Of a stretch of DNA of 64,000 nucleotides, positions 23,217 through 32,468 are shown piece by piece. The stretch comes from Actinomycetota bacterium (GTDB taxonomy: Bacteria > Actinomycetota > Acidimicrobiia > Acidimicrobiales > RAAP-2): NCBI GenBank assembly GCA_009726065.1, contig WLNA01000001.1, forward strand, positions 62,001 to 126,000, given 5' to 3'. How positions within the stretch are numbered: position 1 is the stretch's first letter; each line of letters begins with the position of its first letter. The position numbers and the translations under genes were made by a program. The notes under the pieces were generated by a model. It saw nothing but the letters and a program-made list of their open reading frames with translations. It searched no databases and had not been told where the DNA came from.

Positions 23217-23860
23217 ATCTGAAAATTAAGAAGACGATCGGCTACCGAATTGTTCGGCTAATCGTCGTCGTGGTCTGGCGCGTAATGTTCCGGCCGCGAG
23301 TAGTGGGCGCTGAGAACATTCCGTCAAGCGGTCCCGTTCTACTTGCTCCGATACATCGTTCCAATATCGACTTCGCGTATCTAGTGTTCGCCACGAACCG
23401 CAAAACATTCTTCATGGCTAAAGATTCACTCTGGAAGATTCGCCCCATAGGGGCTCTCATTCAACTTATGGGAGCATTTCCAGTGAAACGAGGTACTGCC
23501 GACCGTGATTCATTAAAGAATGCACAGCAGGTGCTCAATGAGGGCCAGGCCCTTGTCCTCTTCCCCGAAGGCACCCGACAGGAGGGAGACCTGGTTGGGC
23601 CCTTATTTGAAGGGGCAATGTTCATTGCGAGTCGCGTGGGAGCGCCCGTAATACCCGTAGGTTTAGGCAATACCGAGAAAGCCATGCGTAAAGGATCGAA
23701 ATTCCCGAGACCCGTCCGCACCACTGTGGTTATCGGAACGCCGATAGCGCCACCGCAAAGCAACACACGCGTCACCCGTACCGAACTTAACGCGGCAACA
23801 GAAGAACTTCGAGCGGGATTGCAAAAGGCCTACGATCAGGCCCGAGCGATGTTGAATTAG
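23198..23860 (+). CDS. plsC: 1-acyl-sn-glycerol-3-phosphate acyltransferase (PlsC-like)
   Basis: 220-residue membrane-associated acyltransferase of phospholipid synthesis. N-terminal hydrophobic helix (about 15-30), catalytic HRSNID (His53, Asp58), and FPEGTR (122-127). GAGGAG precedes the ATG, which overlaps cmk by 19 bases. Last gene of the scpA run. Its stop overlaps the facing glycosyltransferase by 4 bases (TTAG). The acyl-acceptor specificity is inferred from the family. Confidence 0.92.
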   Translation: MSESTLNLKIKKTIGYRIVRLIVVVVWRVMFRPRVVGAENIPSSGPVLLAPIHRSNIDFAYLVFATNRKTFFMAKDSLWKIRPIGALIQLMGAFPVKRGTADRDSLKNAQQVLNEGQALVLFPEGTRQEGDLVGPLFEGAMFIASRVGAPVIPVGLGNTEKAMRKGSKFPRPVRTTVVIGTPIAPPQSNTRVTRTELNAATEELRAGLQKAYDQARAMLN

Positions 23861-24663
23861 CGTTCACGCCACCATGTTTTAAACACCACTCGGGCGTACC
23901 TAAATCCAAAAAGCCAGTTACTACCCTTTTTCGTGGTACCAGATTGACGAGGATGCCAAACGGTTGGCACCTCGCTGACGCGCCAACCCCGCTTGAGCGA
24001 AGTAATCAAGAGTTCTGACGTCTGGTACTGCTCTTGTTCCAAGCGGTCAATAACATCCGCCAGCATCGATACGCGCAACCCTCGATAACCAGTAGACGTA
24101 TCCGTGAGGCGTTGCCTGGTCATGACATTCACAATGAAACTGAACACTCGTACGCCCACCGCGCGAAAATGATTCTCAGTTGTGTCTACGCCCAAACGTC
24201 GAGAAGCTAGGACAAAGTCGCTTCGGTCTTCAACAATGTCCCGAATAAGTTCGGGCAGCTCTACCGGATCATTTTGACCGTCAGCATCGAGGGTAACGAT
24301 GTATTGAGCGCCCCGTTCAATACAGAAGCGATATCCAACCTGGAGAGCGACACCGTGTCCAAGATTCACGGGGAATTCAATGACGATGACCTCAGGAAAG
24401 GTGCGGCAAATCTCCGCCGTGCGGTCATCGCCTCCGTCTACCACCACAATCGTGGTGTAGGGCTCGCCCAAGACTAACGTCGGCATTTTCTCGAGAACTG
24501 GACCTATATTTCCTTCTTCTTCGTACGCTGCAATCAGTGCGACAAACGGCTTGGGTACGAAGCCGGGCCGCTCAGAGTCAAGCTGCTCCAGAGCTTGACG
24601 AATTGCATACTTCTTCATGGAGTCGTACCGGCGCTTCTCCAGATCAATCAACTTCGATGCCAC
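23857..24663 (-). CDS. Family 2 glycosyltransferase, polyprenyl-phosphate sugar synthase-like
   Basis: 268-residue GT2 enzyme. GT-A features: ALIAAYEEEGNIG (42-54), VDGGDD (75-80), catalytic DADGQ (126-130), TSTGYRGLR. Layout resembles dolichol/polyprenyl-phosphate mannose or glucose synthases without the C-terminal membrane domain. The start is GTG behind AAAGGA, 9 bases after the stop of the HD-domain gene, so ispH-HD-GT forms a minus-strand operon. With ispH making isoprenoid precursors, a polyprenyl-linked sugar donor is a sensible but unproven role. Confidence 0.82.
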   Translation of the reverse strand: MASKLIDLEKRRYDSMKKYAIRQALEQLDSERPGFVPKPFVALIAAYEEEGNIGPVLEKMPTLVLGEPYTTIVVVDGGDDRTAEICRTFPEVIVIEFPVNLGHGVALQVGYRFCIERGAQYIVTLDADGQNDPVELPELIRDIVEDRSDFVLASRRLGVDTTENHFRAVGVRVFSFIVNVMTRQRLTDTSTGYRGLRVSMLADVIDRLEQEQYQTSELLITSLKRGWRVSEVPTVWHPRQSGTTKKGSNWLFGFRYARVVFKTWWRER

Positions 24664-24672
24664 AGGTGTCCT

Positions 24673-25239
24673 TTAGATGCTTCGGGGCTTACTGAACACT
24701 TGACGAACCATAGGTTCGAAATGCTCCAGCGGGCGAGATGTAAAAGCGGGGTCGAAACTTGTCTGGTCCCATTCGTCGGCGAACCGTATCGCCAGGTCGT
24801 AATAGGGCTTATCCGTGTGATTACGCCGCAAGTCGGGATCCATGCCGAGGTGTGAGTAGTAGTGCTTACCCTGGAAATCTTGATGCGCACAGATCATCCA
24901 ATAGACGTCCTCTCGCACGTACGGACGCAAAATCTCTGCGGCAATCTTTGGATGATTGGCGACTGAAATAATTTTTCCGATGTCGTGACAAAGGGAGGCC
25001 ACAATGACCTCCTCGTCCATGCCAGCGTCTTCGGCGCGCGTCGCTGTTTGTATAGCGTGTTCGAGCTGATTGACTGCAAAACCATCAGTCACATTTTCAA
25101 GGTCTGCCAGCATCGACAATATGCGATCGGCCACCCGAGGCTGTGCGGCTACCGTCACCTCGGCGATATGCATCCACTGTTCCCGTGTTGATTCGTCCAT
25201 ACGAGCAAAAGAAGTCACACTCATATTGTCGCACTTCAC
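24673..25239 (-). CDS. HD-domain protein, PhnZ / myo-inositol oxygenase-like
   Basis: 188-residue helical protein with a six-ligand HD metal site: His61, His85-Asp86 (LCHDIGK), His96, His119 (CAHQD) and Asp158 (WDQ). From memory, this pattern and the 24-residue step from the first His to HD resemble PhnZ-type mixed-valent di-iron oxygenases more than ordinary phosphohydrolases. The Tyr and Glu that PhnZ places 10 and 7 residues before the first His are Thr51 and Phe54 here, so the substrate would differ. The start is uncertain: GTG at 25239 or ATG at 25224. No Shine-Dalgarno is seen for either. Follows ispH after 28 bases. Confidence 0.7.
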   Translation of the reverse strand: MKCDNMSVTSFARMDESTREQWMHIAEVTVAAQPRVADRILSMLADLENVTDGFAVNQLEHAIQTATRAEDAGMDEEVIVASLCHDIGKIISVANHPKIAAEILRPYVREDVYWMICAHQDFQGKHYYSHLGMDPDLRRNHTDKPYYDLAIRFADEWDQTSFDPAFTSRPLEHFEPMVRQVFSKPRSI

Positions 25240-25267: not shown

Positions 25268-26296
25268 TTACGCCGAGAGCACCGTGGCGGCTGAGAAGTC
25301 TCGATCCCGAGCGGCCACGTCATCAGCCGGCAACGAACCGCTGAAACTAAGGCAGATGAGAGATTCCAGAGAGCGGAGCAGTTCACGAAGTTCCGGTGGA
25401 GGAGGGAAGTACTCATCCTCAATCGTAACGGGATTGACATAAACACCATCACGAGGACTCAACTTCTTGAGTACTTCGTCAACAAGAGATTCTGGCGCCG
25501 ATGCGCCCGCAGTTACGCCAATGGTTCCTGAGAGGTCGTCTGGTAGTTCTGACGCCTCATTCACTCGATACACACGTTCGCAGCCCACTGACGTTGCGAC
25601 CTTTGTTAACGCAACGGTGTTTGAGGAGTTGGCCGATCCAATGACCACGACGGCATCAGCCGTCGCTGCGATCTCACGAAGAGCGGCCTGTCGATTGGTC
25701 GTGGCAAAGCAGAGGTCGGAGCGATTCGGAAGCCAAAGATCAGGAATCTTCCCGATTGCGTAATCACGGAGATACTGCCATTCATCGAGAGACAAGGTGG
25801 TCTGACTTAGTAGGGCGAATGGCCCGGAGAGGAGGGCGACGGCATCAATATCTGACTCACTCTGTATCAAATGAACCGAATCTGGCGCTACGGCCATTGT
25901 TCCAACAGCCTCCTCGTGACCCTCGTGGCCTACGTACAACACCGTGTAGCCCTTCCGTGATCGCACCTTGAGTTCGTGATGGACTTTGGTCACCAGTGGG
26001 CATACAGCGTCTATGACCGTTCCGCCATTTTCTTGGGCGGTGGCAATGACTGATGGTGGTGACCCATGTGCGCTCAACATCAAGGGTGCGCCTTGTGGAA
26101 CCTCGCTAACGTCATCAACAAAAATAACGCCCAGCTGCTTAAAGTGATCAACCACATACTGGTTATGAACGATTTCGTGATAGCAGTAGACCGGCGGAGT
26201 GAAGACCTTCGTCATCCAGTCCAACGCCTTAATAGCCTTCTCGACTCCGGCACAAAAGCCCCTCGGTGACGCTAGGAGCACCTTGTCGACGTTCAT
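25268..26296 (-). CDS. ispH: 4-hydroxy-3-methylbut-2-enyl diphosphate reductase
   Basis: Last step of the MEP isoprenoid pathway, making IPP and DMAPP with a 4Fe-4S cluster. 342 residues. The three cluster cysteines are Cys15 (PRGFCAGV), Cys99 (DAVCPLV) and Cys196 (DLCFATTNRQ). HEIVHN, SAHGSPP, GHEGHEEAVGT and the substrate loop GSANSSNT are present. First gene of a minus-strand operon, apparently leaderless (ATG 6 bases after TAGGCT), divergent from the DUF512 gene. Confidence 0.97.
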   Translation of the reverse strand: MNVDKVLLASPRGFCAGVEKAIKALDWMTKVFTPPVYCYHEIVHNQYVVDHFKQLGVIFVDDVSEVPQGAPLMLSAHGSPPSVIATAQENGGTVIDAVCPLVTKVHHELKVRSRKGYTVLYVGHEGHEEAVGTMAVAPDSVHLIQSESDIDAVALLSGPFALLSQTTLSLDEWQYLRDYAIGKIPDLWLPNRSDLCFATTNRQAALREIAATADAVVVIGSANSSNTVALTKVATSVGCERVYRVNEASELPDDLSGTIGVTAGASAPESLVDEVLKKLSPRDGVYVNPVTIEDEYFPPPPELRELLRSLESLICLSFSGSLPADDVAARDRDFSAATVLSA

Positions 26297-30554: not shown

Positions 30555-32468
30555 ATGAGTACAACCGAGCGCAAGAACGCAACTAGCCATACAAGGACCC
30601 TCCTCGCCGCCAGCTTGGGTTCTCTGCCTTTTGAAGATCGCTCCGATTTCGACCGGGCCATAAGAGGCAAACTCGCAGAAGCTACGGATCGCCAAATAAT
30701 TGGTCGATTTGGACACGCTGTTTGGGATTTAGACGCTTACGAGTTTGAATCGGCCGCTGGATCTGATTCCGTTCATCCGAGTTTGTGGCGTCAAGCTCAA
30801 CTCAATAATGCCTCCGGTTTATTTCAAGTCACAGATGGCGTCTACCAAGTTCGTGGACTAGATATCTCGAATATCACCTTCATTAGGGGGCACGAGGGCT
30901 GGATTGTGATTGACCCTCTCACAGGCACCGAGACCGCGGCGGCATCACTGCAGTTGATAAATAGCCATCTTGGTGAGCGACCAGTGAAGGCAGTGATTTA
31001 CACGCACTCTCACACCGATCATTTTGGAGGCATTCTCGGCGTCGTAACTGAGGAGGAAGTCTCGAATGGTTCAGTTGAGATCTTTGCCCCAGCGGGCTTT
31101 TTGGAGGCAGCGGTTTCAGAGAACGTCATCGCTGGCACCGCGATGCTTCGTAGAGCGATGTACATGTACGGCGTGCTCTTGCCTAAGGACGAACTTGGAC
31201 ACGTTGATACCGGCCTAGGTAAATCCTTGCCAGCCATGCCGGGGGTGACGCTGATTGCACCAACAATCGATATTCACCTGACTGGCGAACGCCATGTTGT
31301 TGACGGCGTTACTCTTGAATTCCAGATGACGCCGGGAACCGAAGCACCAGCGGAGATGAACATCTTTCTTCCCGACTTCCAGGCTCTTTGTCTCGCCGAG
31401 AACTGCACGGCCAACCTTCACAACCTCTACACATTGCGTGGAGCGCAAGTCCGAGACGCCCTTGGTTGGTCAAAATACATCAACGAATGCTTAACAGAAT
31501 TCTTGCCGAAGATTGACGTCGCCTTCGCGTCGCATCATTGGCCGCGTTGGGGTGTAGATGAGATCCGGGAATATCTAGAGAACCAAAGGGACCTATACCG
31601 TTCGATTCACGATCAAACCATGCGACTCGCCAATCACGGCCTCACCATGAACGAGATTGCGGAGGAAATTGCGCTTCCGCCGCATCTAGCGAAACAATTC
31701 TACAACCGCGACTACTACGGCACCGTTCGTCACAATGCCAAAGCGGTCTACCAGCGTTACCTGGGCTGGTTCGACGCTAATCCAGCTCACCTCAACCCAC
31801 ATACGCCAGTTGAAGCTGGGAAGCGTTACGTAGAGTTCATTGGAGGCTCGGAGACCCTTTTGGCTCAAGCTCGAAGTAGCTTTGAAAAGGGTGACTACCG
31901 CTGGGTGTGCGAAGTAGTCAACCACCTAGTTTTCGCGGAGCCGGAGAACATCGAAGCCCGGTACCTACAAGCCGATGCGCTTGAACAGTTGGGATACCAG
32001 AGCGAATCTGGTCCGTGGCGCGACTTTTACCTGACTGGAGCCCAAGAACTCCGTGCCGGAGGAAGTGCGCTCAAGGGAGTTCGAGGGAACTCGACCGGAC
32101 CATCATTTATGAGAGCTATGACGATGAACATGATGACCGACGTAATCGGAGTCCGGCTTAACGGTCCCGCCACCAAGGATCTTTGGTTAACCATCAGTGT
32201 GACCCTTACAGATCGCGACGAGCCAACCGAACGTATTGAAATTCGTGGGGGCGTGCTCTCGTCACGCCACGCGCTGGAGAGCGAGGTGGTTGACATCGCA
32301 ATCACATGCGAGCAGTCTGCGTTCGCCAGATTTGCAGGTGGTTCAAATACGATCGACGAGATTATGGGAGATTCCATGTTCTTGATCGATGGTGACCTGG
32401 ACGCAATGAGACTTCTGGAAAATCATCTCGACATATTTGAGTTTGGCTTTGAGGTCGTGCTTCCTTAG
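30555..32468 (+). CDS. Alkylsulfatase-like metallo-beta-lactamase fold hydrolase
   Basis: 637-residue class III (SdsA1-like) alkylsulfatase homologue. The metallo-beta-lactamase motif is HSHTDH at 151-156 with downstream ligand region ENCTANLHNLYTLRGAQVRDALGWSKYI, typical of linear alkylsulfatases. The C-terminal third looks like dimerisation and SCP2-type lipid-binding domains. No signal peptide is seen, unlike the secreted Pseudomonas enzyme, so it probably acts in the cytosol on alkyl sulfates or related esters. Last gene of the der run. Its stop overlaps the facing acetyltransferase stop (TTAG). Confidence 0.87.
   Translation: MSTTERKNATSHTRTLLAASLGSLPFEDRSDFDRAIRGKLAEATDRQIIGRFGHAVWDLDAYEFESAAGSDSVHPSLWRQAQLNNASGLFQVTDGVYQVRGLDISNITFIRGHEGWIVIDPLTGTETAAASLQLINSHLGERPVKAVIYTHSHTDHFGGILGVVTEEEVSNGSVEIFAPAGFLEAAVSENVIAGTAMLRRAMYMYGVLLPKDELGHVDTGLGKSLPAMPGVTLIAPTIDIHLTGERHVVDGVTLEFQMTPGTEAPAEMNIFLPDFQALCLAENCTANLHNLYTLRGAQVRDALGWSKYINECLTEFLPKIDVAFASHHWPRWGVDEIREYLENQRDLYRSIHDQTMRLANHGLTMNEIAEEIALPPHLAKQFYNRDYYGTVRHNAKAVYQRYLGWFDANPAHLNPHTPVEAGKRYVEFIGGSETLLAQARSSFEKGDYRWVCEVVNHLVFAEPENIEARYLQADALEQLGYQSESGPWRDFYLTGAQELRAGGSALKGVRGNSTGPSFMRAMTMNMMTDVIGVRLNGPATKDLWLTISVTLTDRDEPTERIEIRGGVLSSRHALESEVVDIAITCEQSAFARFAGGSNTIDEIMGDSMFLIDGDLDAMRLLENHLDIFEFGFEVVLP

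Follow-up and report, generated by a model that had tools for sequence, protein, structure and literature searches.

Three HD-domain oxygenases had been characterized as of 2020, namely PhnZ, TmpB, and MIOX, which are the ones named in section 1.4 of a review of that year (PMC8177086). According to this review, all three contain an Fe(II)/Fe(III) pair with the substrate on Fe1 and O2 on Fe2, and they start with hydrogen abstraction through a superoxo species, for which no reductase is needed (PMC8177086). The ligand pattern of diiron HD oxygenases is given in section 1.4 as H..HD..H..H..D. The same six-ligand pattern is listed for YqeK, a dinuclear phosphatase, and the review warns that cofactor and substrate are not readable from sequence alone (PMC8177086).

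Here, we analyzed an HD-domain gene within a stretch of 64,000 nucleotides (the window) from an actinobacterium of the order Acidimicrobiales, and compared it with these enzymes. No publication on this HD lineage was recognized in the open-licence literature.

The HD-Domain Gene and Its Neighbors

An earlier note on the window had described the product of this gene as an HD-domain protein with a possible di-iron oxygenase site, encoded in an isoprenoid/glycosyl operon. The open reading frame proved to be real, and the predicted metal ligands (H61, H85-D86, H96, H119, and D158) were found at the residue numbers assigned in that note (table 1). Comparison with a 90% identical congener revealed changes at 0.064 of nonsynonymous versus 0.734 of synonymous sites, indicating purifying selection on the gene. 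Folding of a possible hairpin at the start codon on the minus strand was no better than that of shuffled sequences (z = -0.22). The generic Pfam HD model was the sole model which the protein matched above its cut-off.

Table 1. Coordinates of the HD-Domain Gene, Its Neighbors, Predicted Site Residues, and Decayed Copies (Window Positions Unless a Locus Is Named)
Feature	Position	Strand	Remarks
HD-domain gene, putative diiron oxygenase	24673..25239	-	188 aa; GTG start, ATG at codon 6 possible alternative
ispH/lytB	25268..26296	-	28 nt upstream of HD gene, same direction; Pfam LYTB E 4.9e-77
GT2, polyprenyl-phosphate-sugar-synthase-like	23857..24663	-	9 nt downstream of HD gene, same direction; Pfam Glycos_transf_2 E 1.2e-18
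H61 codon, predicted metal ligand	25057..25059	-	112/112 rows
H85-D86 codons, HD dyad, predicted metal ligands	24982..24987	-	H85 112/112, D86 111/112
H96 codon, predicted metal ligand	24952..24954	-	112/112 rows
H119 codon, predicted metal ligand	24883..24885	-	112/112 rows
D158 codon, predicted metal ligand	24766..24768	-	112/112 rows
T51-D52-G53-F54, place of PhnZ/TmpB YxxE loop	25078..25089	-	no Glu at 54 in 112 rows
K89 codon, HD+3	24973..24975	-	K 66, D 45, T 1 of 112 rows
Q123 codon, place of PhnZ K108	24871..24873	-	Q 112/112; hhalign register
Decayed HD copies between ispH and GT2 in two congeners	L187 2567-2818; L198 1218-1415		one with large internal deletion

As the earlier note had stated, the gene lies between ispH and a family-2 glycosyltransferase gene (GT2), whose product scored 72.5 bits on the NCBIfam PpgS model (cut-off 370). 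The note's remark that phosphonate genes are absent nearby also agrees with our data: none was seen among the neighbors examined, and two pairs of PhyH and PhnZ-type HD genes are present on other contigs. Elsewhere in the window, positions 30555-32468 (plus strand) encode a 637-aa protein which by eye resembles an alkyl sulfatase of the metallo-beta-lactamase fold.

The position of the gene would fit a role in isoprenoid or polyprenyl-sugar metabolism together with ispH and GT2. Among 50 loci from GTDB species genomes, ispH is found upstream on the same strand in 26 (in three, the contig end is too close to judge) and GT2 downstream in 25, and the gaps in the window are 28 and 9 nt. On the other hand, in 23 genomes of the same genus the HD gene is intact between ispH and GT2 in ten, whereas in eight ispH and GT2 (in G020, the GT2 start) are adjacent with no HD gene. 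Fragments of the gene are left in two genomes, one having lost residues 56-152 by an internal deletion (G005) and the other retaining residues 123-188 only (G007); three genomes (G009, G015, and G022) are undecidable at this locus. Moreover, ispH-HD is retained in the absence of GT2 in further families of the order, and homologs in Halomonadaceae, in Acidobacteriota, and on plasmids have unrelated neighbors. Since ispH and GT2 persist where the HD gene has been lost, we rejected an isoprenoid/glycosyl role as the default, and the functional tie suggested by the earlier note was not supported. Such a role appears very unlikely. The "isoprenoid/glycosyl operon" probably tells where the gene is located and no more, this address being an old one, with the HD gene as an accessory at a fixed place.

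Metal Ligands of the Family

Relatives were collected from GTDB species genomes (50 loci), plasmids (19 records), 61 related genomes (37 of which had a match of any strength at an E value of 0.001 or better), and 396 genomes from the same phylum (26 of which had a match at 1e-15 or better). After merging of identical rows, the family alignment contains 112 distinct rows, one of which is from the window; two fragments (L057 and L031) and three PhnZ-type rows (L002, L003, and L032) were left out.

The H..HD..H..H..D ligand set of mixed-valent diiron HD oxygenases is present in this family (112 rows). Its spacing is conserved as well: D86 and H96 are 10 residues apart and H96 and H119 are 23 apart in every row, and the distance from H119 to D158 is 39 in 104 rows, 42 in six, and 40 in two. 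F162 is invariant like Q123 (112/112), and R138 and D163 occur in 111 of the 112 rows. Position 54 is mostly Phe (82 rows; Tyr in 29 and Cys in one), and position 51 is variable (Thr in 56, Val in 20, His in 13, and others). Because YqeK shares the six-ligand pattern, the ligands alone do not decide between an oxygenase and a phosphatase.

Predicted Fold

An AlphaFold model of the window protein was obtained with a mean pLDDT of 94.8 and a pTM of 0.89. Searching it against PDB with Foldseek gave only PhnZ (best E value 9.5e-7) and TmpB (1.2e-5), ten chains in all, below an E value of 1e-3. In VIA-align, PhnZ ranked first (Z = 18.5, rmsd 2.9, 153 aligned), followed by TmpB (Z = 17.6, rmsd 2.8, 152 aligned) and mouse MIOX (Z = 11.8, rmsd 3.4, 141 aligned), with chains of glycyl-tRNA synthetase and of CCA-enzymes next at only 8.9. 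YqeK (PDB 2O08 and 8WMY) reached a Z of 6.6-7.1, as against 18.5 for PhnZ. Foldseek rows below MIOX and VIA-align rows at Z of 8.9 or less were not accepted as relatives. A second model, made for a Halomonadaceae member of the sister type (R58/D89, described below; pLDDT 96.4), gave 17.2 for PhnZ, 16.3 for TmpB, 12.4 for MIOX, and then 8.9. Models of both site types therefore match PhnZ, TmpB, and MIOX ahead of all else.

This order, with a gap after MIOX and YqeK at 7.1 at best, supports the earlier suggestion that the site is of the oxygenase type rather than the phosphohydrolase type. Superposition on mononuclear phosphohydrolases, which had been set beforehand as the refuting outcome of the structure prediction, was not seen at the fold level. 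Judged from the models, this small protein is likely to be most similar to HD-domain enzymes that use two irons and O2 to split a substrate bond. A fold match is no proof of function.

The main rival explanation is a dinuclear HD phosphohydrolase, either YqeK-like or new, which would hydrolyze a phosphoester and use its two metals for hydrolysis only. Besides the ligand pattern of YqeK, it is favored by the generic Pfam HD model being the only one above its cut-off and by one homolog annotated as a phosphohydrolase, though labels of that sort are automatic. The low rank of YqeK in the structural comparison argues against it, and on balance we consider it improbable, if deserving of some weight. 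Residue 58 and the partner genes of the sister type, which also bear on this question, are discussed below.

MIOX (PDB 2HUO and 2IBN; PF05153) resembles the window protein in more than its third place among the fold matches: the ligands are shared, both lack the YxxE loop of PhnZ and TmpB, and MIOX works without a hydroxylase partner, as the window type seemingly does. However, the window protein is shorter, is 17% identical to MIOX in the structural alignment, and scores 18.5 bits on the Pfam MIOX model (cut-off 25). Such subthreshold Pfam MIOX matches were obtained for 17 of 31 family members.

Separation from the Phosphonate Oxygenases

PhnZ (PDB 4N71, 4N6W, and 4MLM/4MLN; TIGR03276 and NF052439), the best fold match, shares with the window protein the six ligands and the GxxxNQLEH start of the site, and TmpB (PDB 6NPA; NF049941) shares the fold and the ligands. 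For a reference of the PhnZ type, 18 proteins from the same order, including two from the window's own genome, were aligned. In PhnZ-like numbering, the Tyr and Glu of YxxE, K108, R109, S126, QGG, R158, and D161 are invariant in these rows. The roles of the YxxE residues are those given in PMC8177086.

The window family differs from this pattern. YxxE reads TxxF in the window, with T51 and F54 aligned to PhnZ Y24 and E27 (numbering as in PMC8177086) through the G-x-x-x-N-Q-L-E-H stretch. The position of K108, four residues after the fourth His, is Gln in 112/112 family rows versus Lys in 18/18 PhnZ-type rows, and that of R158, three before the last Asp, is Asp in 81 of the 112 rows and Arg in none. 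From the fourth His to the last Asp, all 18 PhnZ-type rows have 57 residues versus 39-42 in the window family, which lacks 18 residues at the LSxxS..QGG motif and around it (hhalign places gaps over the LSxxS stretch). HD+3 is Lys in the window instead of His. The same losses are seen in comparison with TmpB, and the window type has no TmpA-like neighbor. In PhnZ, K108, S126, T129, and R158 have roles in phosphonate binding. The replacement of the PhnZ Tyr and Glu by Thr51 and Phe54 noticed earlier was borne out, and it is accompanied by the loss of K108, R158, and the PhnZ-type loop. Because these four residues and the loop are absent, a different substrate, which the earlier note had considered possible, is likely.

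Profile comparison between the window family and the PhnZ type gave a probability of 99.4% and an E value of 3.1e-21 (hhalign). The window protein itself scored far below the cut-offs of NCBIfam TIGR03276 (50 of 214.6 bits), TmpB (34.8 of 300 bits), and PhnZ1 (26.3 of 300 bits). A tree of 123 rows, built by a quick method without bootstrap from 194 columns after near-identical rows had been thinned, split 20 PhnZ-type rows from 103 family rows with an SH-aLRT of 100. Membership in the PhnZ/TmpB phosphonate oxygenases was rejected because the PhnZ-type marks (motifs, spacing, and NCBIfam scores) fail, and by sequence comparison the window family forms a branch of its own beside them. The substrate is probably not a phosphonate, since the residue blocks typical of the phosphonate enzymes have all been exchanged or lost. 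An alternative reading, that of a divergent phosphonate oxygenase belonging to the PhnZ/TmpB pathway type, would be in line with the nearest fold and profile, with the PhnZ-type genes carried by the window's genus, and with a sister-type partner which in one tested case (L081) lies above the NCBIfam TmpA cut-off. Against it stand the lack of Glu at position 54, the changed K108 and R158 positions in all 112 rows, the shorter spacing, the low NCBIfam scores, and the split in the tree, which make it very unlikely.

Two near-copies of a PhyH-family gene paired with a PhnZ-type HD gene are located in the window's genome, on contigs C8 (L002, 597-2028, plus strand) and C4 (L003, 1138-2617, minus strand). 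Their HD proteins are 92% identical to each other and score 202 of 214.6 bits on TIGR03276, just under the cut-off, and the hydroxylases score 262 and 252 of 500 bits on the methylphosphonate hydroxylase model, also below the cut-off. Phosphonate oxidation in the window's lineage probably takes place with these pairs, elsewhere in the genome. In two genomes of the window's genus (G017:C29 52316-53923 and G029:C40 19049-20653), a TmpA gene above the NCBIfam cut-off is next to a PhnZ-type HD gene, and these are likely to be TmpA/TmpB pairs in Acidimicrobiia.

Two Types of Active Site

Two site types were distinguished in the family. The Q58/K89 type comprises 66 rows, mainly from Acidimicrobiia, including the window, other Acidimicrobiia, Glycomyces, and Acidobacteriota; one extra row combines Q58 with T89, and Q58 is thus found in all 67 window-type rows. 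The R58/D89 type (sister type) comprises 45 rows from Halomonadaceae, other Pseudomonadota, and Actinomycetota, all of which have Arg at the third position ahead of the first ligand His (H-3). As far as the aligned residues tell, the exchange between Q58/K89 and R58/D89 is nearly perfect. The R/D type is supported in the tree (41 rows, SH-aLRT 99); resolution is lower at the base of the window type, where three f7 paralogs (L106, L119, and L025) stand apart.

At HD+3, the Lys of the window (K89) and the Asp of the sister type correspond to His in PhnZ, TmpB, and the PhnZ-type copies of the window's own genome. This is also the position of the MIOX substrate lysine, K127, so that a Lys at HD+3 is common to the window protein and MIOX.

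The other exchanged position bears on the phosphohydrolase alternative. An Arg at H-3 is described as common to HD phosphohydrolases (PMC8177086, legend of Fig. 3). The window protein has Q58 at this place, which argues against a phosphohydrolase, whereas R58 of the sister type occupies it and counts against the oxygenase reading. The presence of this Arg in the sister type also puts in question the use of Arg at H-3 as a phosphohydrolase mark.

One sister-type copy, on an Acinetobacter plasmid (L089, 7926-8504), has R138 changed to Cys and D163 to Asn, and is perhaps altered or inactive.

Partner Genes of the Sister Type

The PhnZ and TmpB genes sit with PhnY and TmpA. In the sister type, a TmpA/gamma-butyrobetaine-dioxygenase-like gene was found directly before the HD gene in all 12 Halomonadaceae loci with upstream DNA (in L069, it is too short to judge). 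In L081, the Pfam domains TauD and GBBH-like_N were identified in this partner, and its score on the TmpA model (423.6 bits) exceeds the cut-off of 400. Genes for a GbdR-like regulator and a choline-type substrate-binding protein surround the Halomonadaceae pair, together with variable neighbors (class II aldolase, aminotransferase, or thiamine-diphosphate enzyme). A Pseudomonas plasmid contains the same TmpA-like/HD core, followed by choline dehydrogenase and aldehyde dehydrogenase genes.

Flanking genes at unannotated loci were called with a scorer of GC by codon position, whose starts may be wrong and which may miss genes. Because even the HD gene went undetected by this scorer in 12 of 42 loci (L122, L123, L127, L129, L132, L135, L136, L137, L141, L028, L079, and L084), absence of a neighbor from its lists means little. 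TmpA-like partners were counted by tblastn instead, and neighbor families were read for chosen genes. A TmpA-like gene was detected within 1.5 kb in 18 of 44 D89 rows (at least 1.2 kb of upstream DNA, identical rows counted once), which are not independent cases because twelve are close relatives. Besides L139, the others come from the Pseudomonas plasmid and from two actinobacterial families, of which one is represented by three genomes and the other by a single genome. In 17 of the 18 rows, the gene is directly upstream on the same strand with a gap of -39 to 81 nt, and in L139 it is convergent; L176 is one more case, in which the motif was unread by the pattern. No TmpA-like gene was found within 1.5 kb in 26 of the 44 D89 rows, among which are the remaining eight loci on plasmids (L084-L091). 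A TauD gene is located about 5 kb from the sister-type HD gene in Tistrella.

The TmpA-like partners of the R/D type, which recall PhnY/PhnZ and TmpA/TmpB (TmpB likewise being encoded behind such a gene), therefore support oxygenase chemistry and speak against the phosphohydrolase alternative. Quaternary ammonium compounds are suggested by the sister-type operon, which combines a hydroxylase, a putative HD oxygenase, and a binding protein of the choline type.

On a Phaeobacter plasmid (L087, 8001-10483), the sister-type HD gene is annotated as "inositol oxygenase family protein" and is followed by sterol desaturase family and 3-methyl-2-oxobutanoate hydroxymethyltransferase genes, with no TauD annotated in the stretch.

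Context of the Window Type

By tblastn, no TmpA-like gene was found within 1.5 kb in any of 60 K89 rows with flanking DNA (none of 63 when three misread rows are included). Among 14 genomes of the same genus with the intact gene, TmpA matches (NF049936) were detected in two (G017 and G029). Both adjoin the PhnZ-type HD gene rather than the window-type one, and a TmpA partner elsewhere in the genome was thus rejected. TauD-family matches were absent from eight of the 14 genomes, single absences weighing little because the genomes are in part incomplete (completeness of 66% for the one carrying the window). The window type is without a nearby hydroxylase-plus-oxygenase plan and probably has none at a distance either. 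It may act alone, like MIOX.

The neighbors in the window indicate no substrate. A MIOX-like route from inositol to glucuronate was unsupported, as uronate isomerase (PF02614) was found in only one of the 14 genomes (G029). Paralogs of the window type outside the ispH locus, seen in three f7 genomes (L129, L132, and L134), have neighbors that include genes for a sugar-acid-dehydratase-like protein of the enolase superfamily, amidohydrolases, dehydrogenases, and an ABC transporter whose permease is of the branched-chain/sugar type. These hint at a polyol or sugar-acid-like substrate, in the f7 paralogs only.

Proposed Reaction and Implications

Considering the evidence as a whole, the window protein is quite probably an HD-domain oxygenase with a dinuclear iron site, on a branch of its own, which cleaves a C-C (or C-X) bond in a small hydroxylated compound other than a phosphonate. 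We infer iron, the use of O2, the reaction, and the substrate class from the ligands, the fold, the clade, the losses in the site, and the sister-type partners described above. In such an enzyme, H61, H85, D86 (bridging), H96, H119, and D158 would coordinate a mixed-valent Fe(II)/Fe(III) pair. One iron would be chelated by a substrate that is hydroxylated at the carbon under attack, and O2 would bind to the other. The superoxo would then take a hydrogen from the substrate, the neighboring C-C (or C-X) bond would be cleaved, and the four-electron oxidation would bring the iron pair back to its starting state without a reductase. In the R/D type, the TmpA/gamma-butyrobetaine-hydroxylase-like enzyme would install the hydroxyl first. 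The window type would act alone, like MIOX, on a compound already bearing one.

A broader view, which we put forward tentatively and for which the odds are somewhat less than even, is that the family is a further functional class of HD diiron oxygenases with C-C cleavage, comprising two site types with a moved cation (K89/Q58 or R58/D89). One type would be the second half of a hydroxylase/oxygenase pair acting on trimethylammonium compounds, and the other would act alone on a polyol- or hydroxyacid-like substrate. The exchange of K/Q for D/R represents a natural experiment on the tuning of an HD site. Proteins now labeled as phosphohydrolase or HD domain-containing protein would be corrected accordingly, and a separate lineage, found in three phyla, which shares fold and ligands but has another pocket, would widen the range of what this iron chemistry cuts.
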